Shown: piece by piece, positions 21,456 to 46,250 of the stretch
Numbering within the stretch: position 1 is the stretch's first letter
Layout: the number at the start of each line of letters is the position of its first letter
DNA from: Lacinutrix mariniflava
GTDB lineage: Bacteria > Bacteroidota > Bacteroidia > Flavobacteriales > Flavobacteriaceae
DNA: 64,000 nt
Assembly (NCBI RefSeq): GCF_001418015.1
Contig: NZ_LIQG01000026.1
Span: 868,001 to 932,000, forward strand
Direction: 5' to 3'
Program-made: the position numbers and the translations under genes
The notes under the pieces: model-generated
The model's input: only the letters and a program-made list of their open reading frames with translations
Database searches by the model: none
What the model was told of the DNA's origin: nothing

Positions 21456-21545
21456 CCATTCGTCGACACTTAAGCGTTATTCGTCGACACTTAAATCGTT
21501 CTAAACGAAATTTAAAATTTAAAATTATCAATTACGATAGCTTTG
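21456..21545 (+). promoter_or_regulatory. LytTR-type direct-repeat promoter of the H-NOX/FIST operon
   Basis: Direct repeats CCATTCGTC (21456-21464) and TTATTCGTC (21477-21485), both continuing GACACTTAA, begin 21 bases apart. The -7 element TAGCTTTG (21538-21545) starts 61 bases after the second repeat. The first gene starts 34 bases after the -7 element begins. This is the best-preserved repeat pair of the six sites in the window. There is no TTTG at the -33 position, which suggests dependence on an activator. The LytTR regulator at 27000 is the obvious candidate, giving autoregulation. Confidence 0.75.
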
Positions 21546-21571
21546 TAATTATTAAAACAAAAACCCTCGTA

Positions 21572-21985
21572 ATGGTGAAAAAACTTAAAATACTTCTTAT
21601 AGAAGACGATATGATAGAGATCATGAAATTGAATAGAACAATTTCAAGACTGAAACTAGATCACACTATAGTTGAGGCTAATAATGGAGAAGAAGCATTA
21701 GAAGTTTTAGAGCAAAAAGATAATCTGCCAGATATTATTTTGTTAGATTTAAATATGCCCAAAATAAATGGTATTGAGTTTTTAAAAATTTTAAAAGCCG
21801 ACGACGTTTTAAAATACATTCCAACAATTATTTTATCGACATCTAATAATAAAAAAGATTTGTTAGAATGTTACAAAACAGGAGTCGCTGGTTATGTAAT
21901 AAAACCATTAAAGTATGAAGATTATGTTAGTAAAATTGAAAAATTATTAGCATATTGGAGTGTCAATGAATTAATTGTAGTTTAA
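21572..21985 (+). CDS. Single-domain receiver (CheY/Rcp1-like response regulator)
   Basis: 137 residues forming one receiver domain: acidic pocket EDD (11-13), phospho-acceptor Asp59 (LLDLNMP), Ser/Thr at ILSTS, and Lys in the VIKPL motif. The insertion around KADDVLKYIPTIILSTSNNKKDL resembles the Rcp1 subgroup that partners phytochrome-like kinases. There is no output domain, so it may shuttle phosphate in the relay or act as a phosphate sink. It is the first gene of a seven-gene signalling operon and lies 3 bases before the H-NOX gene. Confidence 0.9.
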   Translation: MVKKLKILLIEDDMIEIMKLNRTISRLKLDHTIVEANNGEEALEVLEQKDNLPDIILLDLNMPKINGIEFLKILKADDVLKYIPTIILSTSNNKKDLLECYKTGVAGYVIKPLKYEDYVSKIEKLLAYWSVNELIVV

Positions 21986-21988
21986 AGT

Positions 21989-22528
21989 ATGAAAGGAATA
22001 GTTTTTACAGAATTTTTAGAGTTAGTAGAAGATAAGTTTGGTCTTGAAATGGTCGATAATATTATAACCAGTTCTACTTTAGAATCTGAAGGTGTTTATA
22101 CCTCTGTAGGAACTTATAGTTTTTCAGAAATGTTACAACTATTAGGGCATTTAAGTGAAAACACCGGTATTTCTATAGATAATTTATTATTAGTTTATGC
22201 AGAGCACTTTTTTAGTGTTATAGAAAAAAGTTATCCTGGACTTTTAGCAACTTATAAAGATCCTATTGAAATGATTTCTTCAATAGAAAATCACATACAT
22301 GTAGAGGTCAGGAAAATATATCCAGATGCTGAGCTTCCAACTTTTGAAGTTGTAGAAAAGACAAAAAATTCTTTAATAATGATTTATACATCTAGTCGAG
22401 CAATGCATCACTTTGGTTTAGGATTAATGAATAAAACATTTGAGCATTTTAATTCAACGGCTAAAATAGAATTGCAAAAAATTAAAGAAGATGGAACGGA
22501 AGTTAGATTTGTTATTCATAAAAATTAA
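21989..22528 (+). CDS. H-NOX (haem NO-binding, HNOB) sensor protein
   Basis: 179 residues, a stand-alone H-NOX domain of normal length. The family start MKGIVFTEFLELVEDKFG is present. The proximal haem ligand His104 lies in HIHVEVRKIYPDAELP, and the haem-propionate motif YxSxR is YTSSR (133-137). H-NOX proteins bind NO, in some cases O2, at ferrous haem and, in studied bacteria, control a histidine kinase encoded beside them. Here the PAS kinase gene begins on the stop codon (TAATG overlap), so that kinase is the expected partner. The protein is cytoplasmic. Gas selectivity cannot be read with certainty. Confidence 0.93.
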   Translation: MKGIVFTEFLELVEDKFGLEMVDNIITSSTLESEGVYTSVGTYSFSEMLQLLGHLSENTGISIDNLLLVYAEHFFSVIEKSYPGLLATYKDPIEMISSIENHIHVEVRKIYPDAELPTFEVVEKTKNSLIMIYTSSRAMHHFGLGLMNKTFEHFNSTAKIELQKIKEDGTEVRFVIHKN

Positions 22529-24486: not shown

Positions 24487-24488
24487 AA

Positions 24489-25622
24489 ATGAAAACAGTA
24501 CAGCTAGTAAAACATAAAAATAAAAATTGGGAGTATGTTACTAAAAATAAAGAGATAAAAGAACCTTTAGTTTTAGTGTTTGGTAATAGATTTATGTTAG
24601 AAGAGCCTACTGTTTATGCAGAAGTTAAGCAGTTTTTTCCAGATGGACATATCGTTTTCGCTTCTTCATGTGCCGAAATTTCATCTAATACTGTAAACCA
24701 AGATAGTATTACAATTACAGCAATAGAATTTGAAAAAAGTAAGTTTGTAATTAAAACTAGTAATATTTTAAATACAGATTTAGATAGTTTTAAAACAGGA
24801 AAAAACCTTATTGAACAATTACCACAAGACGGACTAAAATATGTGTTTGTAGTTTCGGAAGGTAGTTTTATTAATGGTAGCCAACTTACCAAAGGAATGA
24901 ATAATTCAACAGAAAACAATTTATTAATAACTGGTGGCTTATGTGGTGACGATGCTCGTTTTGAAAAAACACTAGCATCTTACAACGAAAACCCTAAAGA
25001 AGGAGAGTTAGTTGCTATTGGTTTTTATGGCGATACACTCGAAATATCTTTTTCAATACATGGTGGATGGACACCTTTTGGGCCTGAACGTATTGTAACA
25101 AAATCTGAAAACAACATACTTTATGAGTTAGATGGGCAACCAGCTTTAGATTTGTATAAAAAATACTTAGGAGACAAAGCAAAAGACCTTCCTGGTGCAG
25201 CTTTGTTATATCCTTTAAACGTTACATCTATAGACGAAAAGCAATCTATTGTAAGATCTATTTTAAATATAAATGAAGAAGAAAATACTGTAATATTAGC
25301 AGGAGATATTAAGCAAAACTCTAAAGTACAGCTCATGATGACTAATGTCGATAATATTGCAAATGCATCAGAACGTGCAGCAAGGCAAGCGTTAGAATAT
25401 AGAAAAAACAAGCCGGAATTAGCAATTTTAGTAAGTTGTATAGGTAGAAAATTAGTTCTAGATCAACGTGTTGAAGAAGAAATAGAGGAGGTTATAGAGG
25501 TCTTAGGTGCAGATACTGTAACGAGTGGCTTTTATTCCTATGGTGAAATAGCGCCTTTTCATGGAGAAGTAGCATGCCAACTACACAACCAAACAATGAC
25601 GATAACGCTAATGAGTGAATAA
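24489..25622 (+). CDS. FIST-domain protein (possible NosP-like sensor)
   Basis: 377 residues. The whole length is accounted for by FIST_N (GHIVFASSCAEISS, NNLLITGGLCGDDARF, GFYGDTLEISFSIHGGWTPFGP) and FIST_C (ILYELDGQPALDLYKKYLG, AILVSCIGRKLVLDQRVEEE, GFYSYGEIAPF). FIST proteins are small-ligand sensors paired with signalling proteins, and a subgroup called NosP has been described as haem NO sensors. Whether this one binds haem cannot be read here. It lies between two histidine kinases; its stop overlaps the start of the second kinase, which is the likely partner. Confidence 0.88.
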   Translation: MKTVQLVKHKNKNWEYVTKNKEIKEPLVLVFGNRFMLEEPTVYAEVKQFFPDGHIVFASSCAEISSNTVNQDSITITAIEFEKSKFVIKTSNILNTDLDSFKTGKNLIEQLPQDGLKYVFVVSEGSFINGSQLTKGMNNSTENNLLITGGLCGDDARFEKTLASYNENPKEGELVAIGFYGDTLEISFSIHGGWTPFGPERIVTKSENNILYELDGQPALDLYKKYLGDKAKDLPGAALLYPLNVTSIDEKQSIVRSILNINEEENTVILAGDIKQNSKVQLMMTNVDNIANASERAARQALEYRKNKPELAILVSCIGRKLVLDQRVEEEIEEVIEVLGADTVTSGFYSYGEIAPFHGEVACQLHNQTMTITLMSE

Positions 25623-26686
25623 TGAATTCATTATTAAAAAGACAACTACGCAAATTTTTAAGCGAAGAATTAAAAGAAAATAAAGAGTTAGCTGTATTTC
25701 TTAACGCTGTAGATAGTTCTTACAACAATTTTGAGGAACAATCAACAATGATTCAAAGAGCTATGGCTATTAGTTCAGACGAGTTATATGCTGCAAACAG
25801 AAAATTACAAAACGAAGCAGAAGAACAAAAAAAAGTTATCGATAAGTTAAAAAGCGTTATTAATACTTTAAAGTTTTATAATTTAAAAGAAGATGAGAAA
25901 TTAGAAGACGTTGAGTTAACAGGTTCGGGTTTAGTAGATTTTATAGATAGCCAAACCAAGGAAATTGTTGAGGTTAATAAACAAAAACAATCTATGTTAA
26001 ATGAGTTAGCGCATCAAAATCAGGAACTTAGTGATTATGCACACATGGTGTCTCATGATTTAAAATCACCATTACGCAGTATAGATGCTTTAACTACTTG
26101 GCTATCTGAAGACTATAAGGATGCTTTTGACGATGACGGAAAAAACACACTAAGTCTCATTAGAGATAATGTAGAAAAAATGGATACTTTAATTAATGGT
26201 ATCTTAGAGTATTCAACCATTGGAAAAGACCAAGTAGAAATTTATAATGTTGATGTAAACGGTTTAATTGAAAATATATTAAATAGCATGCATATTCCCA
26301 AAAATATTAGCATTACAAAAATAAATTTGCCAATTATAAAAGGAGATAAATATAGGTTGCAACAATTGTTTCAAAACTTAATTAGCAATGCTATAAAATA
26401 TAATAATAAAGAAAAAGGCACTATAGAGATAGTTGCCCAAGACCAACAAGAATATTGGCAATTTTATATACGCGATAATGGAAAAGGTATTGAGGAAACT
26501 TATTTTAATAAAATTTTTAAAACATTTATAAAGTTAGAAAACAGCCCAGAATCTACAGGTATAGGTCTATCTATTGTTAAAAAAATTGTAGAATTATATG
26601 AAGGTAAAATATGGCTTGAATCTCAAGTAAATATAGGAACTACTTTTTATTTCACCTTAAAAAAAAATCGTGATGGAACAACCTAA
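25622..26686 (+). CDS. Soluble histidine kinase, probable FIST partner
   Basis: 354 residues without a membrane segment or PAS domain. The N-terminal 135 residues are helical or coiled coil, with FLNAVDSSYNNFEEQSTMIQ, a region also seen in kinases paired with FIST/NosP-type sensors. The HisKA domain has DYAHMVSHDLKSPLRSID (His about 145), and the HATPase has NLISNAIKY, DNGKGIE and STGIGLSIV. Its catalytic core is a near copy of that in the other kinase of the operon. Both probably feed the same HPt. The start overlaps the FIST stop (TAATG), and its 3' end overlaps the HPt start. Confidence 0.88.
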   Translation: MNSLLKRQLRKFLSEELKENKELAVFLNAVDSSYNNFEEQSTMIQRAMAISSDELYAANRKLQNEAEEQKKVIDKLKSVINTLKFYNLKEDEKLEDVELTGSGLVDFIDSQTKEIVEVNKQKQSMLNELAHQNQELSDYAHMVSHDLKSPLRSIDALTTWLSEDYKDAFDDDGKNTLSLIRDNVEKMDTLINGILEYSTIGKDQVEIYNVDVNGLIENILNSMHIPKNISITKINLPIIKGDKYRLQQLFQNLISNAIKYNNKEKGTIEIVAQDQQEYWQFYIRDNGKGIEETYFNKIFKTFIKLENSPESTGIGLSIVKKIVELYEGKIWLESQVNIGTTFYFTLKKNRDGTT

Positions 26687-26990
26687 CCAAAGTTATATTA
26701 ACAACCTTTCGGGAGGAGATGAGGTTTTTAAACAAAAATTAATTGAAATTATTAAAATGGAGTTCCCAGAGGAGAAACAAATCTATTTTGATAATTACAA
26801 CGCTAAAAAATTTAAGTTAACAGCAGGCAACGTGCATAAACTTAAACATAAAATTAGTATTTTAGGCCTTGAAAAAGGGTATGAAATCGCTGTAAATTAC
26901 GAGAAGAACTTAGAAGAAGGGAAAACCGAAGGTAAAGACCAATTTGAAGCGATACTTAGCAACATAACAAAATATCTAGAGACACTTTAA
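26673..26990 (+). CDS. Histidine phosphotransfer (HPt) protein
   Basis: 105 residues from the ATG at 26673; a GTG one codon earlier is possible. All-helical, with the HPt signature NVHKLKHKISILGLEKG, in which His55 is the likely phospho-acceptor and Lys/Gly follow at the expected spacing. It overlaps the preceding kinase gene by 14 bases and lies 9 bases before the LytTR regulator. It probably passes phosphate from one or both kinases to receivers, including the LytTR protein and perhaps the receiver-GT2 fusion at 46281. Confidence 0.85.
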   Translation: MEQPNQSYINNLSGGDEVFKQKLIEIIKMEFPEEKQIYFDNYNAKKFKLTAGNVHKLKHKISILGLEKGYEIAVNYEKNLEEGKTEGKDQFEAILSNITKYLETL

Positions 26991-26999
26991 ATATAGCCT

Positions 27000-27713
27000 A
27001 TGAATTGCATTATTATTGATGATGAAGCTACTGCTAGAATGATTATAACACAGTTATGCTCAAAGCTTCCAAGTCTTAACGTTTTAGAAGAATTTCCTAA
27101 TGCAATGCAAGCCATAAAGTATTTAAATCAAAACGAAGTAGATTTAATATTTTTAGACATACATATGCCGGATTTTACAGGTTTCGATTTTATTGAAACG
27201 CTTAAAAATCCACCAAAAATAATCTTAACAACATCAGATCCTAACTTTGCTATTCAAGCGTTTGAGTACGATTGTATTGTAGATTATTTAGTAAAACCAA
27301 TAACGCAAGAGCGTTTTGATAAAGCCATACAAAAGGCAGAGTCTAAACAAAATAAGCCAAGTGAAACGGTTTCGAAAGGTGAAAAGGTAGAAGCTACTTC
27401 TGGTAACGATTTATATGTAAATATAGATAGGCGCTTAATTAAAATAGATATCCCAAGTATTTATTTAGTAGAAGCAAAAGGCGATTATATTCAAGTTAAA
27501 ACAGAAGATAAAAACTACACAGTACATTCTACATTAAAAAAAATAGCAGACAAGCTACCAGATAGTTTGTTTTTGAAAGTACACAGGTCTTATATTATCA
27601 ACGTTCAAAAAATTATAGATATAGAAGATAATAGTGTTTTAATTAAAAAAGATGTGATTCCTGTAAGTAGATCTAACAGGCCAGAATTAATGAAACGTCT
27701 AAACTTACTATAA
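27000..27713 (+). CDS. LytTR-family response regulator
   Basis: 237 residues. The receiver has an acidic pocket DDE (7-9), phospho-acceptor Asp53 (FLDIHMP) and VKP. A linker (about 115-135) leads to a LytTR DNA-binding domain (VNIDRRLIKIDIPSIYLVEAK, then HSTLKKIADKLP, FLKVHRSYIINVQKI). LytTR proteins bind two short direct repeats on one face of DNA, usually 9 bp with about 12 bp between. Exactly such repeats precede this operon and five other transcripts in the window, so it is the most likely activator of that regulon. Last gene of the operon, followed by a strong terminator. Confidence 0.92.
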   Translation: MNCIIIDDEATARMIITQLCSKLPSLNVLEEFPNAMQAIKYLNQNEVDLIFLDIHMPDFTGFDFIETLKNPPKIILTTSDPNFAIQAFEYDCIVDYLVKPITQERFDKAIQKAESKQNKPSETVSKGEKVEATSGNDLYVNIDRRLIKIDIPSIYLVEAKGDYIQVKTEDKNYTVHSTLKKIADKLPDSLFLKVHRSYIINVQKIIDIEDNSVLIKKDVIPVSRSNRPELMKRLNLL

Positions 27714-28019: not shown

Positions 28020-28110
28020 CGGTTTAACTGCCTTGTTTAACCATTCGTCTACATTTAAAAGGCGCCTAATCGAAAAAGAAAAAAATCTAGAGTCTTTCAA
28101 ATTAATTTTG
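28020..28110 (+). promoter_or_regulatory. LytTR-type promoter of the CAP lipoprotein gene
   Basis: The anchoring repeat CCATTCGTC (28041-28049, continuing TACA) has a weak partner CGGTTTAAC 21 bases upstream (28020-28028). TAATTTTG (28103-28110) starts 62 bases after the anchoring repeat and 30 bases before the gene. The remainder of the 420-base gap between the operon and this gene holds only the operon terminator. Confidence 0.65.
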
Positions 28111-28132: not shown

Positions 28133-28624
28133 ATGAGAAAATTAGTTTTAGTAGCCGTTTTATTTAGTACGTTTTTAATGTCTTGTTCAGTAGAAGAGGA
28201 TAATAATATTCCAGAAGAGTACAATTCTAATAATACAACAGCAGAATACACGCAACTAGATTATGAAATAGCAGAACTTATTAATACTTACAGAATTTCT
28301 CAAGGTCTTAATGCCTTAAATATTTTAAACGAAGCTTCTAATGAGGCCTCTACACATAATCAATACATGGTTAATAAAGGTGTAACAAGTCATGATTATT
28401 TTTATTTAAGATCACAAAATTTAGAAACAGCAGTTAATGCTATAAATGTCTCAGAAAATGTAGGTTATGGCTTTACTAAAGCAACGTCTGTAGTTAATGC
28501 CTGGAAAAACAGTGAAGCGCATAGATTAAATATGGTAAACCCAGATTTTACAGATTTTGGAATCTCTACAAAACAAGATGCTAATGGTAAAAACTACTTT
28601 ACTAACATCTTTGTTAAAAGATAA
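28133..28624 (+). CDS. CAP-domain (SCP/PR-1) lipoprotein
   Basis: 163 residues. The lipoprotein signal ends FLMSC (Cys about 18), then an acidic, Asn-rich linker. The CAP domain starts LDYEIAELINTYRISQGL and has HNQYMVNKGVTSHD, SENVGYG and AWKNSEAHRLNMVNPDFTDFGIS, with the two His and Glu residues of the CAP cavity. CAP proteins in bacteria are exported and of varied function; some bind lipids or act in the envelope. It has its own member of the six-site promoter class, so it probably belongs to the same regulon as the exopolysaccharide genes. Confidence 0.9.
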   Translation: MRKLVLVAVLFSTFLMSCSVEEDNNIPEEYNSNNTTAEYTQLDYEIAELINTYRISQGLNALNILNEASNEASTHNQYMVNKGVTSHDYFYLRSQNLETAVNAINVSENVGYGFTKATSVVNAWKNSEAHRLNMVNPDFTDFGISTKQDANGKNYFTNIFVKR

Positions 28625-28631: not shown

Positions 28632-28721
28632 TCGTTTGTCTACAGGAAATGACCATTCGTCTACACTAAAATTACAGTAATCGAAAAACACATTTTAAGA
28701 CCAGTTTCTAAAGTAAATTTG
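28632..28721 (+). promoter_or_regulatory. LytTR-type promoter of the large T9SS protein
   Basis: TCGTTTGTC (28632-28640) and CCATTCGTC (28653-28661), both followed by TACA, begin 21 bases apart. TAAATTTG (28714-28721) starts 61 bases after the second repeat and 34 bases before the gene. It begins only 8 bases after the stop of the CAP gene, so the two genes are separately promoted. Confidence 0.7.
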
Positions 28722-28747: not shown

Positions 28748-31357
28748 ATGATAACAAAAATGCACACCGTTAAAAATCAAATAGTAACAATAGTAATATT
28801 ACTTTTTGGTTTTACAAGTCAAGCTCAAAATAATCCTTTTAATTGCGATTTTAGTGCCTATTTATTTCAATATAACGATGTATACGCAATAGATCTTGCA
28901 TCTGGTAATTCTTACCTTGCAGCTTCAGATATTACAGCAGGTAATATAAACGCAACGGCTTATAATCCTGCAGACGGTTATATTTGGGGATATTTAAGTA
29001 CACCTTCTAGAACGATTGTAAGAATTGGTGACGATTTTCAAACAACAAGCTTTACGCTTCCAGAATTAACTACTGGTAATAAATACGTAGGCGATATTAG
29101 TCCAAACGGTATTTATTATTTTAAAGCAGGAGGAACAACTTATTATAAAGTAGATTTAAATCCAGATTCTGCAACTTACACGCAATACTTATCTACAGAA
29201 ACATTATCTCAAAATATAAGCATTCACGATTGGGCTTTTAATGCCGTAGATGGTAACTTATATGCAGTAGCAAAAGGTACTAATATTTTATATCGTATTA
29301 ATCCAAACACAAGTGTTGTAGAGGCTTTAGGTCCAGTTCCAATTCTATCAGGACTTAATTATACTTATGGTGCCGTTTATTTTGATGCTTCAGGTCGTTT
29401 TTATGTGTCTGCAAACCAAACAGGAACGATTTATGTTATTCAAAATGTGCAAGACTTAACGGCAACATCTATTATGGACTCTAATTTATTTGCTTTCGGC
29501 CCATCAAGTGCTAGTAACGATGGAGCACGTTGCCCAACAGCTCCTGTAGCACAAGAAATTTGCGATAATGGTATAGATGACGATGGTGATGGGTTAATAG
29601 ATTGCGAAGATCCTTCATGTTCAGGTTTTGGTACCTGTGCTGTAATCGCGCCACCTTCTACAGCTAATGATGGCGGTTTAGAAAGCAACGGAAGATTATC
29701 TGATGCCATTAACAAACGTAATTATAACCGTGCTAAACATAGTTATAAGTTTAACCAAAAAACAGCAAAACGTGTCACTAGAGATACTAGTAATGCTGCA
29801 AACAAAACATCATTTACAGGTTTTCAATTACAAGATTTTGTGCCATTAACAACCATTAACGAGGATTATGCAATAGACTCTACACCACAAGATTTACTAA
29901 ACATAACAAATGCAACAGAAGTGTACTCTGTAGATTACATGCAAAACGATGCATCAATTGCTTCTGTATTAGCTTTAAAAACAGAAAACGGTGTCTATGA
30001 ACACACAAAGTATATTTGCGACAGATTATTAGGTGCAGAACTAATTACAGTTTCTACTATTAGTATTAACGACCAGCCTTTTATAAAATCGATTATTAAA
30101 AATGCCGATGGTTCTTTTGAATACGTACTAAGTCTTTCGGCTAAAGTAGAAAATAACGACACTAATTTTGCTATAGAAAGCCACTGGAATTTAGATTTGT
30201 ACCAAGAGAATGTAACCTTCTATAATTTTCAAATTTGGTCAGATTCTATAGACGATTTATACCTTTTAGCAGAAGAAGTTTTAAATCTTTTAAATGCCGA
30301 AAAAACAATATCTGGTTACCAATTATCTACACCACCAACAGTATTTGTAAGAAAAGGAAAATATAATAATGGCGCTTTAGATCTTCAAATTATAAACACC
30401 AATGCAACCAATGTTGTTAATTTCGATTCGGGATACAGAGTAACAGAAACTAGCGATTTTAATTACACAACATCTACACTTAACTTAAACCAAAATTACA
30501 TTACAAATATTACAGTGCCAACAGGGCATTTATTTGATGTTGGTTTTAGAATAGGAGATGGCATTAATACACCAGACGATTTATTTATGTCTGATGGTCC
30601 TTGGGGAGTCGATGATTCTCAAGACAGTACAACAGTAAATAACTATACTATTGAAGCCAACACAAACACATTTGAAACCGAAGATTTTCCTGTAGAAAGA
30701 AATCTAACACTTAATGCAACAACAAGCACTTATTTTGCAGCTTACAGAGCGTTAACACCACGTTTTAAAGCTGTAGATTTAGCAGCGTATAACAACCTTA
30801 AATTAAAAGCAAACGGAACAGGAGATTTAGAGATTACACTAGTAAAACAAAGCCTAACCAATTGGGACGAGCAATACAAGGCAACAATAGCTTTAACAGA
30901 AACAAATCAAGAATATGTTATAGCATTTCAAGATTTTACATCGTCTCTAGGAACCGCATTAAATGCTAACGATATTGTAACCATGGTATTTACAATGGTA
31001 AGTAAAAATGGAACAAGTATAACACACGAAATGCAATTGCAAGATGTACGTTTCTCTAAAGGTAATACATTGTCTGTTAATGCTTTTGAAACGGAAACAG
31101 CAACAAACTCACTAGCAGTGTTTCCAAATCCAATGTTAAATAACGCAAACATACACTATACGGCTAACCAAAGCGAAACAGTAAACTTAATTATCTACAA
31201 TCAATTAGGTAAAATGGTTTACCAGACAACAGCAAAGGCACAACCTGGTAAAAACCAAATAGCAATAAGTAAACAAAATCTTAGTACTGGATTATACATT
31301 TGTAAATTATCGAGTACACAAACACATTACAGTCCCTTGAAGTTACTAGTAAAGTAA
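28748..31357 (+). CDS. Large secreted protein with T9SS C-terminal sorting domain
   Basis: 869 residues with a Sec signal peptide (ending GFTSQAQ). Residues about 30-265 look like a beta-propeller of the DUF6923 type (YVGDISPNGIYYFKAGG, DGNLYAVAKGT). A Cys/Asp-rich calcium-binding-like segment (CDNGIDDDGDGLIDCEDPSC, about 271-290) follows. The middle (about 330-780) is not recognised. The last 70 residues form a type A sorting domain (VFPNPMLNNANI, GKMVYQTTAKAQPGKN, LSTGLYICKLSS). It should be carried over the outer membrane by T9SS and stay at the surface. The promoter class links it to the LytTR regulon. Confidence 0.85.
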   Translation: MITKMHTVKNQIVTIVILLFGFTSQAQNNPFNCDFSAYLFQYNDVYAIDLASGNSYLAASDITAGNINATAYNPADGYIWGYLSTPSRTIVRIGDDFQTTSFTLPELTTGNKYVGDISPNGIYYFKAGGTTYYKVDLNPDSATYTQYLSTETLSQNISIHDWAFNAVDGNLYAVAKGTNILYRINPNTSVVEALGPVPILSGLNYTYGAVYFDASGRFYVSANQTGTIYVIQNVQDLTATSIMDSNLFAFGPSSASNDGARCPTAPVAQEICDNGIDDDGDGLIDCEDPSCSGFGTCAVIAPPSTANDGGLESNGRLSDAINKRNYNRAKHSYKFNQKTAKRVTRDTSNAANKTSFTGFQLQDFVPLTTINEDYAIDSTPQDLLNITNATEVYSVDYMQNDASIASVLALKTENGVYEHTKYICDRLLGAELITVSTISINDQPFIKSIIKNADGSFEYVLSLSAKVENNDTNFAIESHWNLDLYQENVTFYNFQIWSDSIDDLYLLAEEVLNLLNAEKTISGYQLSTPPTVFVRKGKYNNGALDLQIINTNATNVVNFDSGYRVTETSDFNYTTSTLNLNQNYITNITVPTGHLFDVGFRIGDGINTPDDLFMSDGPWGVDDSQDSTTVNNYTIEANTNTFETEDFPVERNLTLNATTSTYFAAYRALTPRFKAVDLAAYNNLKLKANGTGDLEITLVKQSLTNWDEQYKATIALTETNQEYVIAFQDFTSSLGTALNANDIVTMVFTMVSKNGTSITHEMQLQDVRFSKGNTLSVNAFETETATNSLAVFPNPMLNNANIHYTANQSETVNLIIYNQLGKMVYQTTAKAQPGKNQIAISKQNLSTGLYICKLSSTQTHYSPLKLLVK

Positions 31358-36749: not shown

Positions 36750-36792
36750 GTTCTAGTTTTTATTCATTTGCAAGTTAAGCAATCATATTCAA

Positions 36793-36862
36793 TCATTCGT
36801 CTACAGCAATGGTCCACTCGTCGAAATTCATCAGTCTCTCAGAGGTTTGTGTTGCACCTTTG
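36793..36862 (+). promoter_or_regulatory. LytTR-type promoter of the STAS-flippase operon
   Basis: TCATTCGTC (36793-36801) and CCACTCGTC (36814-36822) begin 21 bases apart. CACCTTTG (36855-36862), one base from TAnnTTTG, starts 62 bases after the first repeat. Here the anchoring repeat is therefore the upstream one and an extra repeat lies closer to the promoter. The first gene starts at 36902. The region separates this operon from the divergent TPR/barrel gene. Confidence 0.65.
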
Positions 36863-36901: not shown

Positions 36902-37180
36902 ATGGCACTTACAATATTAAGAAACAATAACACTTTTACAGTAGAAGGAAAAATAAACACGAGTACAGTAGGCAGTTTTAAAGCACATTTTAATATTACA
37001 CTTAATACTTTAAAAAACTTAACAATAGATATTAGTAAGGTTACCGAAATTGATGTTAATGGCGTTGAAGCTATTAAGTCTATTTATAATAATGCAAAAT
37101 CTTGGAACAAACCATTTGCAATAGTTGGTAACGGTTGTAAAGAAATTTACGAAGAACTATTAACGCAAAACGTAGCATAA
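36902..37180 (+). CDS. STAS-like small protein A
   Basis: 92 residues from the ATG at 36902. A GTG-initiated extension to 36809 runs through the promoter repeats and is rejected; the next paralog also starts MALTI. The fold pattern is that of a STAS (anti-anti-sigma) domain: FTVEGKINTSTVGSFKAHF, NLTIDISKVTEIDVNGVEAIKSIY, KPFAIVG. In the loop where classic members have the phospho-acceptor Ser (D-S-S-G), this protein reads DVNG, so Ser-based regulation may be lost. First gene of an operon with a paralog and a flippase. Confidence 0.75.
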   Translation: MALTILRNNNTFTVEGKINTSTVGSFKAHFNITLNTLKNLTIDISKVTEIDVNGVEAIKSIYNNAKSWNKPFAIVGNGCKEIYEELLTQNVA

Positions 37181-37215
37181 TTAAAGATAGAACTTAACCT
37201 AATTAAACAATAACT

Positions 37216-37494
37216 ATGGCACTTACAATTACACAACAAGACACAACTATTTCTTTAGAAGGAACATTAAATGTTTTAACAGTAAATAGCTTAAAAGCAC
37301 ATTATGATTTTATTAAAAGCCCTTTTAAAAGCTTTACAATTGATATTGATAATGTATGCGAAATTGATGCTTCAGCATTATTTACTTTAAAAGAAATGTA
37401 TAGAACTGCAGCTTTGTCTTTAAATCCATTTTTTATAGTTGGAAAAAGAAGTGAAGAGGTTTATGAAGATTTTCAATTCTCGAACATAGCCTAA
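37216..37494 (+). CDS. STAS-like small protein B
   Basis: 92 residues, a paralog of the preceding gene with the same length and start (MALTITQQDTTISLEGTL). The loop here reads EIDASALFTL, so a Ser is kept near the usual phospho-acceptor position. STAS domains act in phospho-switch partner exchange or bind nucleotides. No anti-sigma kinase is visible in the window. The pair precedes a flippase gene by 28 bases, suggesting post-translational control of export. Confidence 0.75.
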   Translation: MALTITQQDTTISLEGTLNVLTVNSLKAHYDFIKSPFKSFTIDIDNVCEIDASALFTLKEMYRTAALSLNPFFIVGKRSEEVYEDFQFSNIA

Positions 37495-37522
37495 TTAAAT
37501 AACACCAAACACACCAAATAAG

Positions 37523-38767
37523 ATGCACGCTTTATCTATTTTAAAAAAGAAAACAATCTCTCCAGAGCAATTATTTATGCTAAGCGTATTAGCTGTAAAT
37601 GGAGGGAACTATTTGTACAATCTTATTTTAGGTCGTGTTTTAGGTCCAGCACAATTTGCAGATGCTGCAGTATTAATCACTTTTTTATTGGTACTATCTT
37701 TTGTTGCCATGACGTTTCAATTGGTAACTGCAAAATTCTCGGTTATTTTTGAAAACGAAACTTTTACAAACTTTGTCTCTAAAATTTATAAAAATGCAAC
37801 TATTGTAGGTTTAGGATTAGGTGCTTTAATTATTGTATTTGCAAAACAATTACAAGCCGTTTTTAATACATCGTCTTCTAGTATGTTTACCATTTTTGGC
37901 ATTGGTGTGCCTTTATATTTTTTAATGAGTGTAAACAGAGGTGTGTTTCAAGGTAAAAAAGAATTTAAATGGTTATCGATAACATATCAAGCCGAAATGT
38001 TAAGTCGTTTAATAATTACTTTAGGTTTAATATTCTTGTTTAATATTCAATCTTCGGTTGTTATTGCCATTGGTATTTTAATCTCTTTTGGTTTTGGTTT
38101 AGTGCCTTTTAAAATAAAAAATTTAAACTTTAAAAAGACAATTGCTATTGAAGCAACTAAAGCGAAACAGGTTAAAAACTTTTTTATCATCACTGCGTTT
38201 TACGAGTTAACACAAATTATTATTAACAATAGTGACATCTTATTAGTAAAACATTATTTCGATGCTTACGATGCTGGATTATATGCTTCATTAGCCTTAA
38301 TAGGCCGCATAGTATACTTCGTAGCTTGGATGTTTGTAATGTTATTATTACCAACAGTAGTACAACTTAAAAAAGAAGGGAAAGCAACTGCTCCAATATT
38401 ATTTAAATATGTTGGTTACATTGCTACAATTGCAACTGCAATAGTAATTGGTTGTGCTTTGTTTCCCGAAACAGCAATTACACTATTATTTGGAAAAAGT
38501 TATTTAACAATGGCGCCTTTATTATGGAAATACGCGTTAGCAACTGGTTTGTTTGCCATATCAAACATATTTGCTTACTACTACTTATCGTTAGACAGAT
38601 ATATTCCTGTAGTAATTTCAGGAGTTTTCGGGATGCTTCAAATGGTATTAGTAGTCTTTTTTCACGACAGTTTAGAGCAGGTAGTACACATGCAAATTAT
38701 AGCAATGTCTTTACTACTGTTTATACAAATGATCTTCTTCGCTTTCGATTCTAAATTGAAAAAATAG
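37523..38767 (+). CDS. Polysaccharide flippase (Wzx/PST-like)
   Basis: 414 residues with about twelve membrane segments (starting LFMLSVLAVNGGNYLYNLILGRVLGPAQFA, the family's typical opening). NNSDILLVKHYFDAYDAGLYASLALIGRIVYF is the conserved central helix pair of PST/MATE-like exporters. The product should move lipid-linked oligosaccharide or a polymer precursor across the inner membrane. Last gene of the STAS operon, followed by a terminator, and upstream of the GT4 gene. Confidence 0.88.
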   Translation: MHALSILKKKTISPEQLFMLSVLAVNGGNYLYNLILGRVLGPAQFADAAVLITFLLVLSFVAMTFQLVTAKFSVIFENETFTNFVSKIYKNATIVGLGLGALIIVFAKQLQAVFNTSSSSMFTIFGIGVPLYFLMSVNRGVFQGKKEFKWLSITYQAEMLSRLIITLGLIFLFNIQSSVVIAIGILISFGFGLVPFKIKNLNFKKTIAIEATKAKQVKNFFIITAFYELTQIIINNSDILLVKHYFDAYDAGLYASLALIGRIVYFVAWMFVMLLLPTVVQLKKEGKATAPILFKYVGYIATIATAIVIGCALFPETAITLLFGKSYLTMAPLLWKYALATGLFAISNIFAYYYLSLDRYIPVVISGVFGMLQMVLVVFFHDSLEQVVHMQIIAMSLLLFIQMIFFAFDSKLKK

Positions 38768-38871: not shown

Positions 38872-38962
38872 TGGTAAATCTACACCTTCATTCCATTCGT
38901 CGATAGCAACTTGCAACCCAACTAAAGTTGACCATTTTACTGCCTTTTATAACGCAAATTTG
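38872..38962 (+). promoter_or_regulatory. LytTR-type promoter of the GT4 gene
   Basis: The anchoring repeat CCATTCGTC (38893-38901, continuing GATA) has a weak partner TGGTAAATC followed by TACA 21 bases upstream (38872). CAAATTTG (38955-38962), one base from the -7 consensus, starts 62 bases after the anchoring repeat. The gene starts at 39013, giving the longest leader (about 45 bases) of the six. Confidence 0.65.
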
Positions 38963-39012: not shown

Positions 39013-40248
39013 ATGAAACTAGCAATCGTAACCGCATATCCACCAAGTAAAGTAACATTAAACGAATATGCTTACCATTTAGTAAAGCACTTTAGACAAA
39101 AAGAAAGTGTTACTGAAATAGTGTTGCTTACAGATAAAACGGAAGGAGCAAAAGATATTGCTTTTACAGAAGACGGTTGTAAAATTACAGTAAAAGAATG
39201 TTGGGAATTTAATAGCTACAAAAACATAATAAATGTTACTAAAGCTATTAATAACACACAACCAGATTCAGTATTATTTAACTTACAATTCATGAAATTT
39301 GGAGACAAAAAAGTAGCAGCAGCTTTAGGCTTAATGTTACCATTAGTTTGCAAATTAAAAAAGATACCAAACATTGTCTTATTGCATAATATTTTAGAAG
39401 AAGTAGATTTAGGATCAGCAGGATTTACAAGTAACAAATTAATGCAAAAGTTATATGGTTTTATAGGAACCAGCTTAACTAAATTAATATTACAAGCAGA
39501 TACGGTTGCAGTAACCATGCAAAAGTATGTTGACGTTTTAGAGAAAAAATACAATGCTAAAAATGTAACATTAATTCCGCATGGTACTTTTGAAATCTCA
39601 GAAGAGAAACCTGAATACAGTATTCCTCAAGGACCTATACAAGTGATGACTTTTGGAAAATTTGGAACCTACAAAAAAGTAGAGGCTATGATTGAAGCTG
39701 TAGAAAAAGTAAGAGCAACAACAGGTTTAGATCTAGAAGTTGTAATTGCAGGAACAGATAATCCAAATGTACCAGGTTATTTAGCAAAAGTACAAGAAGA
39801 CTATAAGCATGTATCACAAGTACGTTTTACAGGTTATGTAGAAGAACACGAAGTACCAACTTTATTTAAAGAAAGTGCGGTTGTTGTTTTTCCTTATACC
39901 TCTACAACAGGAAGCTCTGGAGTATTACACCAAGCAGGAAGTTATGGTAAAGCAGTAGTGATGCCAGATTTAGGAGATCTTGCTTTATTAGTAAAAGACG
40001 AAGGTTATAAAGGTGAGTTTTTCGAGCCAACATCTGTAGAAAGTTTAGCAGCTGCAATAGAAGCTATTGTAACAAACGAAGCGCATAGAGTTGCTTTAGG
40101 AAAAGCTAATTACGAAGCTGCAACAGCATATCCAATGGAGAAAATAGCAAACATGTATTTAAGTAGTTTTAATAGAATTATCACTAAAAAGAATACAAGA
40201 ACAACAACTCAAGACACAGTTATACTACAACCTACAATAACAGAATAA
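39013..40248 (+). CDS. Glycosyltransferase, GT4 family
   Basis: 411 residues, GT-B fold. The N-terminal half starts KLAIVTAYPPSKVTLNEYAYHLVKHF and has LLHNILEEVDLGSAG. The C-terminal nucleotide-sugar domain has MTFGKFGTYKKVEAMIEAV, EVVIAGTDNP, VRFTGYVEEHEVPTLF and VVVFPYTSTTGSSGVLHQAGSY, the EX7E-like region of GT4 enzymes (here modified to S/T-rich). It transfers a sugar from a nucleotide donor in the cytoplasm. It has its own promoter of the shared class and is convergent with the GH-A gene. Confidence 0.88.
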   Translation: MKLAIVTAYPPSKVTLNEYAYHLVKHFRQKESVTEIVLLTDKTEGAKDIAFTEDGCKITVKECWEFNSYKNIINVTKAINNTQPDSVLFNLQFMKFGDKKVAAALGLMLPLVCKLKKIPNIVLLHNILEEVDLGSAGFTSNKLMQKLYGFIGTSLTKLILQADTVAVTMQKYVDVLEKKYNAKNVTLIPHGTFEISEEKPEYSIPQGPIQVMTFGKFGTYKKVEAMIEAVEKVRATTGLDLEVVIAGTDNPNVPGYLAKVQEDYKHVSQVRFTGYVEEHEVPTLFKESAVVVFPYTSTTGSSGVLHQAGSYGKAVVMPDLGDLALLVKDEGYKGEFFEPTSVESLAAAIEAIVTNEAHRVALGKANYEAATAYPMEKIANMYLSSFNRIITKKNTRTTTQDTVILQPTITE

Positions 40249-40282
40249 CAGAATTAAACACTGCCTTTTTTGTCCCAAACAA

Positions 40283-41797: not shown

Positions 41798-43011
41798 AGC
41801 TTTTTAGTGTTAAATTCTTTTGTTTTTCCTGCGGTTTCAATACTAAAACGATACACTCCATTTTTATAAATAGCTGGTTTTAAAGTGTAATTTACATAAC
41901 CATTATACGCTGTTTTTATAACGGAATCTACCAATGTATTGTCTTTGTAAATATTCAGTTTTACATGCAATCCATCAGGAATCATTTGCTGCATAAAACT
42001 TTGTAAAGGACCAACTACAATAGCTCTATTGTTATTAGAAAAGACAACTTTAAAATCTTCAATAACTTGTTTATAGTTTAATGAAATAGTATTGCTTTCC
42101 GACATGCCATCTACATAAGCTTTAATGCTCCAATTGTCTTCATAATCTGGATGAATCATTTTTGCATGAGCAACACCTTCAATAGTTGTTCCTGTGGTTT
42201 TTAAAATATTTTCATTTTTATTTTTAATGAAGAACGTTACAAAAGTACCATCACTTACCACATTATTTTGTTTGTCTTTTATTACTGAAGTAAAAAATGT
42301 AGTAATTTGGTTTCCATCGGAATAATCATGAGGTCGTTTGGCAGAAATAGTGAAATCCGTAGGAATTGCGGCTGTAACATTTATGGTGAATTCTTTTGAG
42401 TTGATGCCTAAACTTTCTGAAGATACCAGCATACGACCACTTTCTCTTTTAGAATTTATATTCCTGTAAGCAATTAAATTATTAGTAAAAATATCTTCTT
42501 TTTCTTCTGAAGCTAAAAACTGAAACTTAGCATTTACCATTGTATTTGTTGGTACAGGATTATCTAAAGAATCTGTTGGAATAACAACCAACATAGTGTA
42601 ATCTGTTCCTCCAGCTTCAATACTTGGAGGCCCAATATAAGTTTCCATAGTGGCAACTTCTGCTTTTGGATTAATGTTAATTTTACCAGACAAGTTCTGG
42701 GACTCTTCGACCAAGGTCCAATTAACAATTCCTGTTTTTTTTGTGATATTATCAGGGATGTAAAATTCGATAAAATTATTCTTTATGTTGGAAGACACTA
42801 AAGTCGATCCATAACTATTAGAGCAATATAATATAGGATTTTTAGTTTCTGCAGAAACTAAAAATTTTAAAATAATATAATTGCCAACTTCAAAATCTGT
42901 TTGCGTAGTTAATAGTTTAACTTTATTTGAAGCGCCACTTTGTTGTGCGACAGCAAATGATGATGCAAAAATCAAACTTAAAAACAACAGATATGTTTTT
43001 TTTAACTGCAT
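41791..43011 (-). CDS. Exported Ig-like beta-sandwich protein
   Basis: 406 residues with a signal peptide (ending SSFAVAQ). Beta-rich throughout with repeated Ig-like segments (TDFEVGNYIILKFLVSAETKNP, TDYTMLVVIPTDSLDNPVP, NQITTFFTSVIKDKQNNVVSDG). The pattern 'VVSDGTFVTFFI' resembles invasin/intimin Ig-like domains. No catalytic motif is seen. It lies between the GT-C-like gene (one-base overlap) and the hydrolase gene, so it probably serves the same polysaccharide in the periplasm or on the outer membrane. Confidence 0.72.
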   Translation of the reverse strand: MQLKKTYLLFLSLIFASSFAVAQQSGASNKVKLLTTQTDFEVGNYIILKFLVSAETKNPILYCSNSYGSTLVSSNIKNNFIEFYIPDNITKKTGIVNWTLVEESQNLSGKININPKAEVATMETYIGPPSIEAGGTDYTMLVVIPTDSLDNPVPTNTMVNAKFQFLASEEKEDIFTNNLIAYRNINSKRESGRMLVSSESLGINSKEFTINVTAAIPTDFTISAKRPHDYSDGNQITTFFTSVIKDKQNNVVSDGTFVTFFIKNKNENILKTTGTTIEGVAHAKMIHPDYEDNWSIKAYVDGMSESNTISLNYKQVIEDFKVVFSNNNRAIVVGPLQSFMQQMIPDGLHVKLNIYKDNTLVDSVIKTAYNGYVNYTLKPAIYKNGVYRFSIETAGKTKEFNTKKLW

Positions 43012-46000
43012 TAATTAGGGCTTCCTATGTATGTGTTAATTTCTATTTTAATATAACTAAAATCAGGATGGTCAATTTTTTGTAATTGCGCATCACTATG
43101 GTTTTCAATTCTGTTTGGTACTATTTTTCCAGCAATGGCATCGTTTGGTAAACCATTTACAAAGATGTTTTTCATGTCTGAATTTATGATTTTTACTTTT
43201 CCGTCCTTCAAAATTTGATATTCAAAATCCTGTTTACGTTGCTGTCTCACACCTTCTTTTACAAATAAATGATCGACCCAAACCATGTTTTTATTTTCAT
43301 CGTAATAGGTGATTAATAACTGTGGAATGGTAATTTCCTGAATACCACTATTAAATAAGTTACCGTTTATAGTTTTATCTTTAATATCAATAGCGCTTAA
43401 TACTACATTTTTGTATAAATCCGATCCTGAAACATTTCCTGCTGCTTGTAAGTTGAATTTTGTTGGTTGTTCTTCAAATTCAATTGGAGTAAATTCGTCT
43501 GGATTAAAAGTGTCTGGAATAGAATCTTGAGTTCTTGACCAAGCAATGCCTTCAAAATTAATACGAAAACTACTCGATTCCTTAGGCATTAATTTATGCT
43601 TAATATGGTATTTGGCGTTGTAGGTTGCTAGTTGTTTATTATCATCGTTGTAAAGTGTTCCTTTTAAAATAACATCTGCTGGAACGTTGTCTATATTTTG
43701 CACTTCTCCAATTATAGCATAACTACCATCATACTGCACCAGTTTAGCAGAAACTACTTCTAAAACAGGTTGTTTTAAAATATCTTCGTGATGCGTTGCT
43801 TCGGTTGTAATACGTCTACGACCTTGGTTGAAATACTTGGTTGCGTTAGCAGAATACAGTTGATCTGGTGGTAAGTCGTTATTTAAATCGTCTGGTTGTA
43901 AATACCATTTATCTTTATGTTTAGATAACGATTTATAATCTACTTTTTCAATCTTTTCCAAAGGTGTAATCCATTGGCTCGTTACCTTGGCAGATACTGT
44001 ACTGTCGTTATGTTTTGTTATTTCAGTTTCAATAGCATCCATTTTTGCATAACTACTTAATAAACCATCTGTTACAGAAATTTCTAACATATATTGTGCA
44101 ATGGGCAACTTACTTTCTGGATCTATAAGGCTATGGGCTTTTTCAAATTCTTTAAAATCTAGCGCATCATAATAAGCAATAATAGCATTTTCTGGACTGC
44201 GTTGCGAATCGTTTTTTAGGTAAAACAAATAGATACCATAAAATACAGCTATTGCTAAAATTAGCGACCAAATATGCGTAATTCGTAATACATTGCGATT
44301 AAATTTATTATAAGTTGTTGGAAACTTTAAAAAATCTGGAATAGGCTTAATTTTAGATTTTAAAGCAATGACCCAAAGCATTTGTATGTTTAAAACAAAA
44401 GCAATTAAAACGGTTAAAAATGGTATGATTCCCCACATTATTTTTAGCCATTTTGCAACATCTTCTTTTGGTAAAATAGAAGATACAGGAGGAATATTAA
44501 GTCGTTCCCAAACCATAATGCCATTTTCTAATTGCCTTAAACGTTGCCAGCCACAGAAATAGAGAATGGGATCGTAAAATTTATCGTTAGAAAATATGTA
44601 TTTGAGATTGTATTTTTCTGGTGTGGTTAAAAATTGCTGTAAAGAGCCAATTCCTGCAACGCCTTTAAATTTAGAGTTTTCTAAACGCTCTATTGGTCTT
44701 GTGGTTAATTCTGGTAGACGTCTTGCAGAATGGTAGTTTCCATCTACAGTCATGGCATTTGTTTGTGCACTTAACCAAGCCATTTGGTCACCAAAGCCTA
44801 AGGTTAAAAATCGCCATTTATCGTGATCGTCTTGATTTAAGAAATTCACAATAGGTAACATTTTTATTTTTTGTGGTTGCGATGGTCTAAAATAGTTTAA
44901 ACTCATTGTAAATACTACCATAAACACCATAAGTCCTGCTAATATTCCACCAATAATACGATGGTAAATGGCACCAAATTTAGATTGAATGAGTGCTTTA
45001 AAATCGCCTTCAACAAAACGATAGGTAAACTCTCCCATTATAGGTATGGATAGAATAGAAGCCCAAAGCGTAAACCTGTCTAAGGTTAAAATATTAAAAG
45101 CAGTTTCTCCTAACATTTTTAAAGGCACAGGCGTGGTTCCTCCAGTTCCTAATATAGTACAAATGGTGATAGATAAACCGAAAAACAAGTAGCGTTTGCT
45201 GTAATATCTGTAAAAAATGTATGGTAGTAAAATTAGTAAAATTCCCCAAGGAATTAAAAAGAATACTAAACCTGACGATGTAATTTCTAAAAAATTATCT
45301 CTAGAACCATGCGGAATGGGAACTTGCGTAATTGGGTTGGCTTTAGAGTTTAGCCAATATGGAAAAATGCAACCTACAATTAATACTAGCGATAACATAC
45401 CGAAGCTTACAATACGTTTAAAAAGTTTAAAAAAACTGTTTAAAAATATTTTAAAAGTCACCTCTTTCATGGTGTTTACTTGCTCACGTGAAACATCCAT
45501 AATTACCATTCCTATTAATGGAAATATAAAAAATATCATCCCAAAAATAGGTGTAACATGATGTGAAGTAACCGTTACTGCAATTAAAGATAACGAGGTT
45601 GCTAAATACCATTTCTTACCTGTTTTTAACCACAAATAGATTTCTGGTAAGGCATGCATTAATACAGAAACACCTATAATACTTGGTAATTGCCCAAATA
45701 TGTGAAGCGTTTCTACAAAAGACGATGAGAATACAGCTAAAACGGCTGCATAACCTGCAACTGTTTTGTTAGCTGTCATCATTAATGAAAAACGATAAGC
45801 TCCTGTTATAAAAAGTACAATGGCAATTAATGCGACGCTAAACATACCAAACTTTAAGCCTCCTATTAAAGAAAATAAACCTATAGTTTGGTGGACTAAA
45901 GGTGGGTAGCTTTGTACTGTGAAACCTGTATACCATTCGTAATTCCAAGGCTCAAACCAGCTATTTGCATAATGATCTGCAAAAAATAAGTGTATTAAGG

Positions 46001-46100
46001 CATCATAAGTAGTTTCCAAAGTAAAAAAGATGGCACTACCATGAAATGCCAATCCTAATAAGATGGCAACGATTAAGTATTTGTTTGAGGTTTCCTTCAT
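43011..46100 (-). CDS. Large GT-C-like membrane glycosyltransferase with periplasmic domain
   Basis: 1029 residues. The first 600 residues have about eleven membrane segments. The first extracytoplasmic loop has TTYDALIHLFFADHYANSWF, with an acidic residue and His in the position where GT-C enzymes bind metal and donor; SQPQKIKMLPIVNFLNQ follows in a periplasmic loop. After a last membrane segment (about 625) comes a 400-residue soluble part with an NTF2-like region (ENAIIAYYDALDFKEFEKAH) and beta-rich domains. GT-C enzymes use polyprenyl-phosphate sugars, which the GT2 fusion at 46281 could supply. First gene of a three-gene minus-strand operon. Confidence 0.75.
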   Translation of the reverse strand: MKETSNKYLIVAILLGLAFHGSAIFFTLETTYDALIHLFFADHYANSWFEPWNYEWYTGFTVQSYPPLVHQTIGLFSLIGGLKFGMFSVALIAIVLFITGAYRFSLMMTANKTVAGYAAVLAVFSSSFVETLHIFGQLPSIIGVSVLMHALPEIYLWLKTGKKWYLATSLSLIAVTVTSHHVTPIFGMIFFIFPLIGMVIMDVSREQVNTMKEVTFKIFLNSFFKLFKRIVSFGMLSLVLIVGCIFPYWLNSKANPITQVPIPHGSRDNFLEITSSGLVFFLIPWGILLILLPYIFYRYYSKRYLFFGLSITICTILGTGGTTPVPLKMLGETAFNILTLDRFTLWASILSIPIMGEFTYRFVEGDFKALIQSKFGAIYHRIIGGILAGLMVFMVVFTMSLNYFRPSQPQKIKMLPIVNFLNQDDHDKWRFLTLGFGDQMAWLSAQTNAMTVDGNYHSARRLPELTTRPIERLENSKFKGVAGIGSLQQFLTTPEKYNLKYIFSNDKFYDPILYFCGWQRLRQLENGIMVWERLNIPPVSSILPKEDVAKWLKIMWGIIPFLTVLIAFVLNIQMLWVIALKSKIKPIPDFLKFPTTYNKFNRNVLRITHIWSLILAIAVFYGIYLFYLKNDSQRSPENAIIAYYDALDFKEFEKAHSLIDPESKLPIAQYMLEISVTDGLLSSYAKMDAIETEITKHNDSTVSAKVTSQWITPLEKIEKVDYKSLSKHKDKWYLQPDDLNNDLPPDQLYSANATKYFNQGRRRITTEATHHEDILKQPVLEVVSAKLVQYDGSYAIIGEVQNIDNVPADVILKGTLYNDDNKQLATYNAKYHIKHKLMPKESSSFRINFEGIAWSRTQDSIPDTFNPDEFTPIEFEEQPTKFNLQAAGNVSGSDLYKNVVLSAIDIKDKTINGNLFNSGIQEITIPQLLITYYDENKNMVWVDHLFVKEGVRQQRKQDFEYQILKDGKVKIINSDMKNIFVNGLPNDAIAGKIVPNRIENHSDAQLQKIDHPDFSYIKIEINTYIGSPN

Positions 46101-46159
46101 TTAAAGCCTGAGCTATAATATTATGGTAAAGATAAATAAATATAATAGCGGTTCAATTT

Positions 46160-46250
46160 TTAATTATCTATAGCAATCTACCATTCGTCGACACTTAAAT
46201 ATCGCTTAGTCTAAATAAGAATTTTAAGGTCTCTTTCTCTTGTACATTTG
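46160..46250 (+). promoter_or_regulatory. LytTR-type promoter of the receiver-GT2 gene
   Basis: The anchoring repeat CCATTCGTC (46181-46189, continuing GACACTTAAAT, nearly the same as before the H-NOX operon) has a weak partner TTAATTATC followed by TATAG 21 bases upstream (46160). TACATTTG (46243-46250) starts 62 bases after the anchoring repeat and 38 bases before the gene. Confidence 0.7.

Follow-up and report, generated by a model that had tools for sequence, protein, structure and literature searches.

The question raised by a 64,000-nucleotide stretch of the Lacinutrix mariniflava genome (contig NZ_LIQG01000026.1, positions 868,001–932,000; hereafter the window) is whether six promoters of one architecture form a single regulon, and which protein reads them. 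An earlier note on this DNA had seen near-copies of CCATTCGTC at a constant distance from a −7 element in six places, and had proposed control by the LytTR response regulator encoded at the end of the operon behind the first. The observation is confirmed and the LytTR regulon reading is supported, with binding of the regulator predicted only from sequence: surface-polysaccharide and secreted-protein genes appear to be switched on together through one repeated signal, in an arrangement kept in many relatives. The note had overlooked the third repeat, an additional promoter, and the operon's H-NOX and FIST genes, as well as other polysaccharide genes controlled by the array in some relatives.

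All six anchors (21477, 28041, 28653, 36793, 38893, and 46181) were found in the sequence, and the −7 boxes start 61, 62, 61, 62, 62, and 62 bp after them, exactly as claimed. In anchor order the boxes are TAGCTTTG, TAATTTTG, TAAATTTG, CACCTTTG, CAAATTTG, and TACATTTG; four are exact matches to TAnnTTTG, and those of the STAS and glycosyltransferase family 4 (GT4) promoters are CAnnTTTG, with one mismatch. As background, an exact TAnnTTTG at an offset of 61 or 62 is found for 0.22% of window positions, and one with at most one mismatch for 2.4%. The window holds 11 matches to CCATTCGTC with at most one mismatch, against 4.36 ± 1.87 in shuffled sequences, 0 of 100 of which reach 11. The anchor is in each of the six cases the middle one (B) of an array with two further half-sites, A at −21 and C at +21 or +22, of which A is weak at the 28041 and 36793 promoters. 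The claim of one second copy exactly 21 bp away thus stands as to the existence of a direct repeat and the A–B distance; there are, however, up to three half-sites, and C fits better at 22 at 28041 and 46181. As for the claimed lack of a good −33 element, five of the six promoters have no TTG there, but the GT4 promoter has one 27 bp above its box. The six promoters are as follows (E-values are for model R1, described below).

21456..21545 (+): operon promoter; A 21456, B 21477, C ~21498–21511, box TAGCTTTG 21538–21545; ATG 21572; E = 1.4e-15
28020..28110 (+): CAP-protein promoter; A 28020 (weak), B 28041, C 28063, box 28103–28110; E = 2.9e-11
28632..28721 (+): promoter of a protein with a type IX secretion system (T9SS) sorting tail; A 28632, B 28653, C 28674, box 28714–28721; E = 6.9e-17
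36772..36862 (+): STAS-STAS-flippase promoter; A 36772 (weak), B 36793, C 36814 (strong), box CACCTTTG 36855–36862; ATG 36902; E = 3.8e-8
38872..38962 (+): GT4 promoter; A 38872, B 38893, C 38914, box CAAATTTG 38955–38962; E = 1.1e-10
46160..46250 (+): receiver-GT2 promoter (GT2, glycosyltransferase family 2); A 46160, B 46181, C 46203, box TACATTTG 46243–46250; E = 1.9e-10

The STAS gene start was corrected from the longest-ORF (open reading frame) position, 36809, to the ATG at 36902, which is downstream of the promoter.

The architecture was followed in 80 related loci (1.58 Mb), mostly from genera of Flavobacteriaceae by their record titles, with one from Saprospiraceae. These are the best matches by LytTR similarity, of which at least 80 exist, a selection biased toward LytTR presence. 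In them CCATTCGTC occurs 127 times on the LytTR strand and twice on the opposite one. Among 124 perfect CCATTCGTC(G/T)A anchors in the loci and window, 47 are followed by an exact TAnnTTTG at offsets of 40–89, at 61 (11 cases), 62 (13), 82 (19), or 83 (4) and no other; with one mismatch permitted in the box, the same peaks remain above scattered single matches. The 61/62 and 82/83 classes are one promoter viewed from different copies, A and B being 21 bp apart and B and C 21 or 22. The mean half-site score around 71 B-anchored sites peaks at −21 (z 4.3) and +21 (z 3.2); around 68 A-anchored ones the peaks are at +21 (z 5.3) and +42 (z 2.5). Lesser peaks, e.g., at +17 (z 3.0), also occur. At A-anchored promoters, mostly those of the operon, A is the strongest copy; at the others B is strongest, A is weak (TTnATCtA), and C has the form CTAATCGAAA. 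The half-site consensus is near TTC[G/A]TC[T/G]A[C/A]A, with a period of about 21 bp; the period of 21 is seen in 139 sites from relatives and in the window promoters, some copies being weak. In an alignment of 80 promoters, most of the conservation falls on the half-sites and the −7 box.

Two simpler descriptions were tried and given up. A scheme of exactly two half-sites at 21 bp gave way to one of three, with the last at 21 or 22. A fixed distance from C to the box is only partly true: in the 61 class C is best at 21 in 71 of 75 cases, and in the 62 class (n = 64) at 21 in 40 and at 22 in 18.

The Bacteroidetes promoter consensus pairs TAnnTTTG at −7 with a −33 TTTG, which is not essential but is required for full activity (PMC2483708; this and the other papers cited are drawn on for excerpts). 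A TTG near −33 was found in 5 of the 139 sites from relatives, against 9.0 ± 2.4 in shuffled sequences. By our own count the B–C pair, 9 bp repeats 12 bp apart, ends about 8 bp above the −33 position. It looks like the usual LytTR operator, to which A would be an added third copy; the earlier note's statement that 9 + 12 repeats are known for LytTR regulators agrees with the 9-12-9 direct repeats shortly above −35 described in part of PMC6193735.

For a scan of whole genomes a sequence-only promoter model, R1, was trained on 80 of the 139 promoters from relatives, with the window excluded. In the 3.97 Mb L. mariniflava genome, where 150 of 6618 first-look candidates were scored, seven R1 matches reach E ≤ 3.3e-6, every one of them on the + strand of the window; the two that follow have E = 0.0012 and 0.035. 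Six are those already listed, and the seventh is a weaker array nearby.

21044..21133 (+): seventh, weaker promoter array, before a 93-aa ORF; E = 3.3e-6; box TAATTTCG (by eye), with one mismatch
21162..21443 (+): small ORF of 93 aa without a confident family, versions of which follow 7 sites in the 80 loci

All seven lie on one strand within a 25.2 kb stretch that contains the LytTR gene, and therefore the regulon in this genome appears to be local, around its regulator. A plainer pattern, ATTCGTC N48–56 TAnnTTTG, has eight matches in the genome, four of them in the window, against two for a reversed control. The scan of this and related genomes that the earlier note had called for thus finds a motif that is not scattered at random and that clusters with the LytTR gene on its strand. 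The expectation of a genome-wide regulon was dropped for L. mariniflava, where it is local only; in several relatives it is not wholly local.

The candidate regulator is, as had been claimed, encoded by the gene that closes the operon behind the first site.

27000..27713 (+): LytTR response regulator, proposed reader of the promoters; PF04397 E = 2.2e-20, PF00072 E = 6.2e-19

It is one of 18 LytTR matches in the genome and the only one in the window; its D53 is invariant in 80 of 80 orthologues. The association of sites and regulator was examined in 199 genomes of the family, the only sample free of selection for LytTR. With thresholds of E ≤ 1e-60 for the LytTR orthologue (82 genomes) and E ≤ 1e-4 for R1 (84 genomes; 21 candidates scored per genome, under stricter filters), 77 genomes have both, 7 R1 only, 5 LytTR only, and 110 neither (Fisher 3e-40; this and the following P values ignore the relatedness of the genomes). 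For a single LytTR paralogue from the L. mariniflava genome (L126) the corresponding counts are 30/54/21/94 (P = 0.0045). The exact 13-mer CCATTCGTCKACA, with 128 matches in 65 genomes against 17 in 16 for a reversed control, gives 52/13/30/104 (Fisher 6e-15), a weaker association than that of R1, probably because the 13-mer misses degenerate sites. Its sites in LytTR genomes number 114, of which 92 are no more than 27 kb from the LytTR gene and, without exception, share its strand. Among the 150 R1 matches listed, 128 are within 40 kb of the LytTR gene and all 128 on its strand; 3 of the other 22 are further away on the same contig, 17 on other contigs, and 2 in genomes with no orthologue (these distances rest on the strongest matches). 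When the five R1-negative LytTR genomes were searched again, their best E-values were 0.0033, 0.0456, 0.0222, and 0.014, with no match in the fifth.

In an order-wide sample the LytTR orthologue was present in 12 of 148 genomes, two of them outside the family; the best R1 matches in these two have E = 8.7e-6, about 145 kb from the LytTR gene, and E = 0.0024. The locus from the record labelled Saprospiraceae (L081) has a LytTR protein 79% identical and operon-like neighbours, possibly through misbinning. One genome carries the LytTR orthologue as two tandem copies (G131:C1:1376298-1378238).

What this regulator might respond to is suggested by the rest of its operon, in which receiver, H-NOX, PAS kinase, FIST, kinase, and Hpt-like genes precede LytTR.

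21572..21985 (+): single-domain receiver RR1; PF00072; D12, D13, D59, and K111 invariant in 77 orthologues
21989..22528 (+): H-NOX (haem nitric oxide-binding) sensor; PF07700 E = 4.7e-39, the sole PF07700 match in the genome
22528..24486 (+): PAS histidine kinase adjoining H-NOX (domain search; several PAS matches)
24489..25622 (+): FIST-domain protein, NosP-like; PF08495, PF10442
25622..26686 (+): second histidine kinase (domain search)
26673..26990 (+): Hpt-like phosphotransfer protein; ATG 26673 chosen by eye; weak PF01627 match

Within the 80 loci RR1 was detected in 78, H-NOX in 76, the PAS kinase in 66, FIST in 49, and the second kinase and Hpt-like protein in 80 each, given that some loci are cut by contig ends and that single kinases may count as the second kinase. 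A partner kinase adjoins H-NOX in the operon, and FIST_N and FIST_C domains are present beside a kinase. H-NOX proteins have a YxSxR motif whose residues, like the proximal His, have recognized roles. H104, P117, Y133, and S135 are invariant in 76 orthologues of the L. mariniflava protein; the Arg of YxSxR is outside the list of invariant and near-invariant positions in these 76. Structure 6bdd, which it matches with 321 bits, is the H-NOX of Kordia algicida (PMC7356049). In the Hpt-like protein, His 52 and His 56 of a 102-residue piece are invariant in 80 of 80. No GGDEF-family match was found in the L. mariniflava genome, in a search that was positive in 8 of 14 control genomes, and a cyclic di-GMP (c-di-GMP) output was ruled out on these grounds.

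The genes behind the other five main promoters fit the surface programme that the earlier note had claimed; domain searches identify the following.

28133..28624 (+): CAP-domain protein (PF00188)
28748..31357 (+): protein with DUF6923 and a T9SS sorting tail
36902–37180 and 37216–37494 (+): two STAS proteins, the second below the Pfam cut-off
37523–38767 (+): polysaccharide flippase, in one unit with the STAS genes (36902..38767)
39013..40248 (+): GT4 glycosyltransferase
46281..47465 (+): receiver domain fused to a GT2 glycosyltransferase

Family matches of these genes do not name the type of glycan. The tandem STAS proteins head the flippase genes, and partner-switch control of the glycan is possible. 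Between GT4 and receiver-GT2, on the − strand (40283–46100), are three genes encoding a GH2-like protein of 504 aa, one of 406 aa, and a 1029-aa membrane protein without a confident family. This trio recurs, whole or in part, near GT4 or receiver-GT2 in L066, L068, L083, L084, L124, and L125, and with these two genes it probably makes up one glycan machine.

Targets in relatives were counted with a TCGT core required and at most one mismatch. This gave 183 merged sites. They come from the window and 75 of the 80 loci; L042, L079, L081, L086, and L087 have none. The next ORF is related to the first receiver of the operon at 68 sites, the T9SS protein at 38, GT4 at 22, CAP at 13, STAS at 12, the small 93-aa ORF at 7, the flippase and receiver-GT2 at 1 each, and another protein at 13; 8 sites have no next ORF. 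Eight of the 13 other proteins were searched: two UDP-glucose/GDP-mannose dehydrogenases, an outer-membrane efflux-family protein, a sugar transferase, two of the O-antigen ligase family (one below the cut-off), and two without a confident family. The dehydrogenases, sugar transferase, and O-antigen ligases next to sites suggest that some relatives put other polysaccharide genes under the same array. At about 10–20 kb of L028, L044, L047, and L048, other polysaccharide-type genes with a like array stand behind the LytTR operon, as if cassettes had been swapped.

Further from the LytTR gene, 17 stretches around distant or exceptional R1 matches were examined, covering part of the 22 mentioned above and containing 21 R1 matches, mostly on contigs separate from the LytTR gene. 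Eleven precede an orthologue of a window target: STAS (L112), GT4 (L117, L124, L125), the T9SS protein (L116, L120), the receiver and CAP (L109), and receiver-GT2, with its receiver in L123 and as the GT2 part only in L118 and L125. The L120 site (genome G123), before the T9SS protein, shares a contig with its LytTR gene, at a distance of 0.93 Mb. The receiver-GT2 fusion is itself an array target, and both its full orthologue and its GT2-only relatives stand behind such sites. Stretch L109 (G049) has receiver, H-NOX, and kinase genes with the array, partial FIST matches, and no LytTR gene. In L111 (G175), 2 Mb from the LytTR gene, a strong site, with E = 7e-11, precedes a very long secreted-looking ORF, 2359 aa to the end of the stretch, unrelated to the window targets.

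The array, its spacing, the LytTR association, the targets, and the operon content are thus computed observations. We infer from them that the 27000–27713 protein probably switches on its own operon together with a small set of surface-glycan and secreted-protein genes, through a phosphorelay fed by H-NOX. A LytTR dimer or larger assembly would bind two to three direct half-sites just above a promoter that has a −7 box and as a rule no −33 element, and would recruit RNA polymerase; the upstream array and the usual lack of −33 suggest activation by polymerase contact. The array before the operon itself implies positive feedback, i.e., autoregulation by LytTR. In Spo0-like relays phosphate passes from kinase to receiver, Hpt protein, and regulator. 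With receiver and Hpt-like protein encoded separately, a similar order probably holds here: H-NOX (and FIST) would modulate the kinases, and phosphate would move by way of the single receiver and Hpt-like protein to LytTR. The regulon would probably be set by nitric oxide (NO) or another haem ligand, with a sign that sequence does not fix; NO control is likely. A biofilm polysaccharide locus of Vibrio fischeri is driven by a kinase on which H-NOX acts as a brake (PMC12369376, in part), which makes a like theme plausible here with LytTR as output.

Several points weigh against this reading. Binding, transcription, and NO response are predicted from the DNA throughout, and the match between LytTR and its site rests on resemblance to AlgR, not on a LytTR–DNA structure: a sequence search of the LytTR domain against solved structures gave one match below E 0.01 (3d6w, 0.0017), with no DNA complex. 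The GT4 promoter has a TTG near −33. The Hpt assignment relies on a PF01627 score of 12.5 bits (E = 0.18, cut-off 24.6) and the invariant His residues. R1 finds nothing at E ≤ 1e-4 in five of the 82 genomes with LytTR. At 10 of the 21 matches in the 17 stretches the next ORF is a different one or absent; examples are long proteins that look secreted (L110, L111) and short proteins (L121, L122). Many distant matches are on other contigs, and true linkage may be masked there by the breaks between contigs. An R1 match is also carried by 7 of 117 genomes without a LytTR orthologue; G049 keeps sites before receiver and CAP genes with no orthologue at 1e-60. Together with the 18 LytTR matches in the genome, these last cases would fit an array read by another LytTR or DNA-binding protein, linked to 27000–27713 by co-inheritance of the cluster. 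That is nevertheless quite unlikely: co-occurrence is strong for the 27000–27713 orthologue and weak for the one tested of its 17 paralogues, no other LytTR match is in the window, and G123 has a site before an orthologous target that shares a contig with the LytTR gene but is remote from it. An AT-rich genome and a short motif might also suggest chance or a dispersed repeat element as the source of the six-fold similarity, a vanishingly improbable explanation that was ruled out by the shuffles, strand bias, spacing peaks, R1 scan, and co-occurrence in the 199 genomes. Conservation that centres on half-sites and −7 box is unlike a mobile repeat.

The direction of control cannot be read from a sequence, and HnoC of Shewanella is a repressor (PMC8738867, in part), so that LytTR could instead block the promoters until a signal releases it. 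Repression is nonetheless unlikely, since the whole array is upstream of the −7 box, its closest half-site falls just above −33, and −33 TTGs are rare, a layout shared with the activating LytTR systems in the relevant part of PMC6193735. Control by LytTR with a signal other than NO is a more serious contender, if still rather doubtful. FIST was undetected in 31 of 80 loci, which also tells against the relay as proposed; the kinase has several PAS matches and its own signal might dominate, or H-NOX and FIST might sense O2, redox state, or CO. Against this, H-NOX is in 76 of the 80 operon loci and is close to that of K. algicida, which is counted among facultative anaerobes (PMC7356049), whose H-NOX proteins sense NO according to excerpts of PMC8738867.

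LytTR activation through an H-NOX-fed relay, if borne out, would supply a concrete promoter code and target list, with a crystal structure known for the close K. algicida H-NOX, and could give a bacterium with no GGDEF match a route from haem-gas sensing to surface polysaccharide. More tentatively, it is possible that this is a widespread flavobacterial NO switch free of c-di-GMP, in which an H-NOX/FIST relay feeds a LytTR activator that reads a three-repeat array above a −7-only promoter, lineages put different polysaccharide cassettes behind this one promoter code, and receiver-GT2 is phosphorylated by the same relay; the glycan would then be controlled twice, in transcription and in enzyme activity. 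No paper was found in the open-access literature that brings LytTR, H-NOX, and Bacteroidetes together, nor, by titles and the beginnings of abstracts of the papers listed, one on a role of H-NOX in flavobacteria. A search for the motif string with Flavobacteri gave none on topic among the titles listed. Among the listed papers that name two of H-NOX, NosP, and LytTR, a single one has LytTR (PMC6769237), and it does so with respect to AgrA nitrosylation.

Among known systems, the half-site CCATTCGTC is identical at 8 of 9 positions to the AlgR box CCGTTCGTC, and AlgR has been placed in the LytTR family (PMC4064291). The AlgR regulon of Pseudomonas aeruginosa (alginate) likewise combines a LytTR-family response regulator, exopolysaccharide genes, and weak and strong sites; its sites, as described in part, are at varied and often distant positions, whereas here there is a fixed array above a −7 box, and the kinase inputs differ, with H-NOX and FIST here. 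HdrRM, BrsRM, and similar systems share 9 bp direct repeats mostly 12 bp apart near −35 and positive autoregulation (PMC6193735, in part), but their repeat is of the ACC-CTTA type, the third half-site is particular to the present array, and their regulators are paired with a membrane protein instead of being response regulators. The H-NOX/NosP networks of Shewanella, Vibrio, and Legionella are alike in joining haem NO sensors to kinases, phosphotransfer, and a biofilm output (excerpts of PMC8738867), although several use c-di-GMP enzymes. In V. fischeri an H-NOX protein (HnoX) beside a kinase (HahK) controls the syp biofilm polysaccharide (PMC12369376); there the output is SypG/SypE by way of SypF or LuxU, while here it would be LytTR, reached through a separate receiver and an Hpt-like protein.

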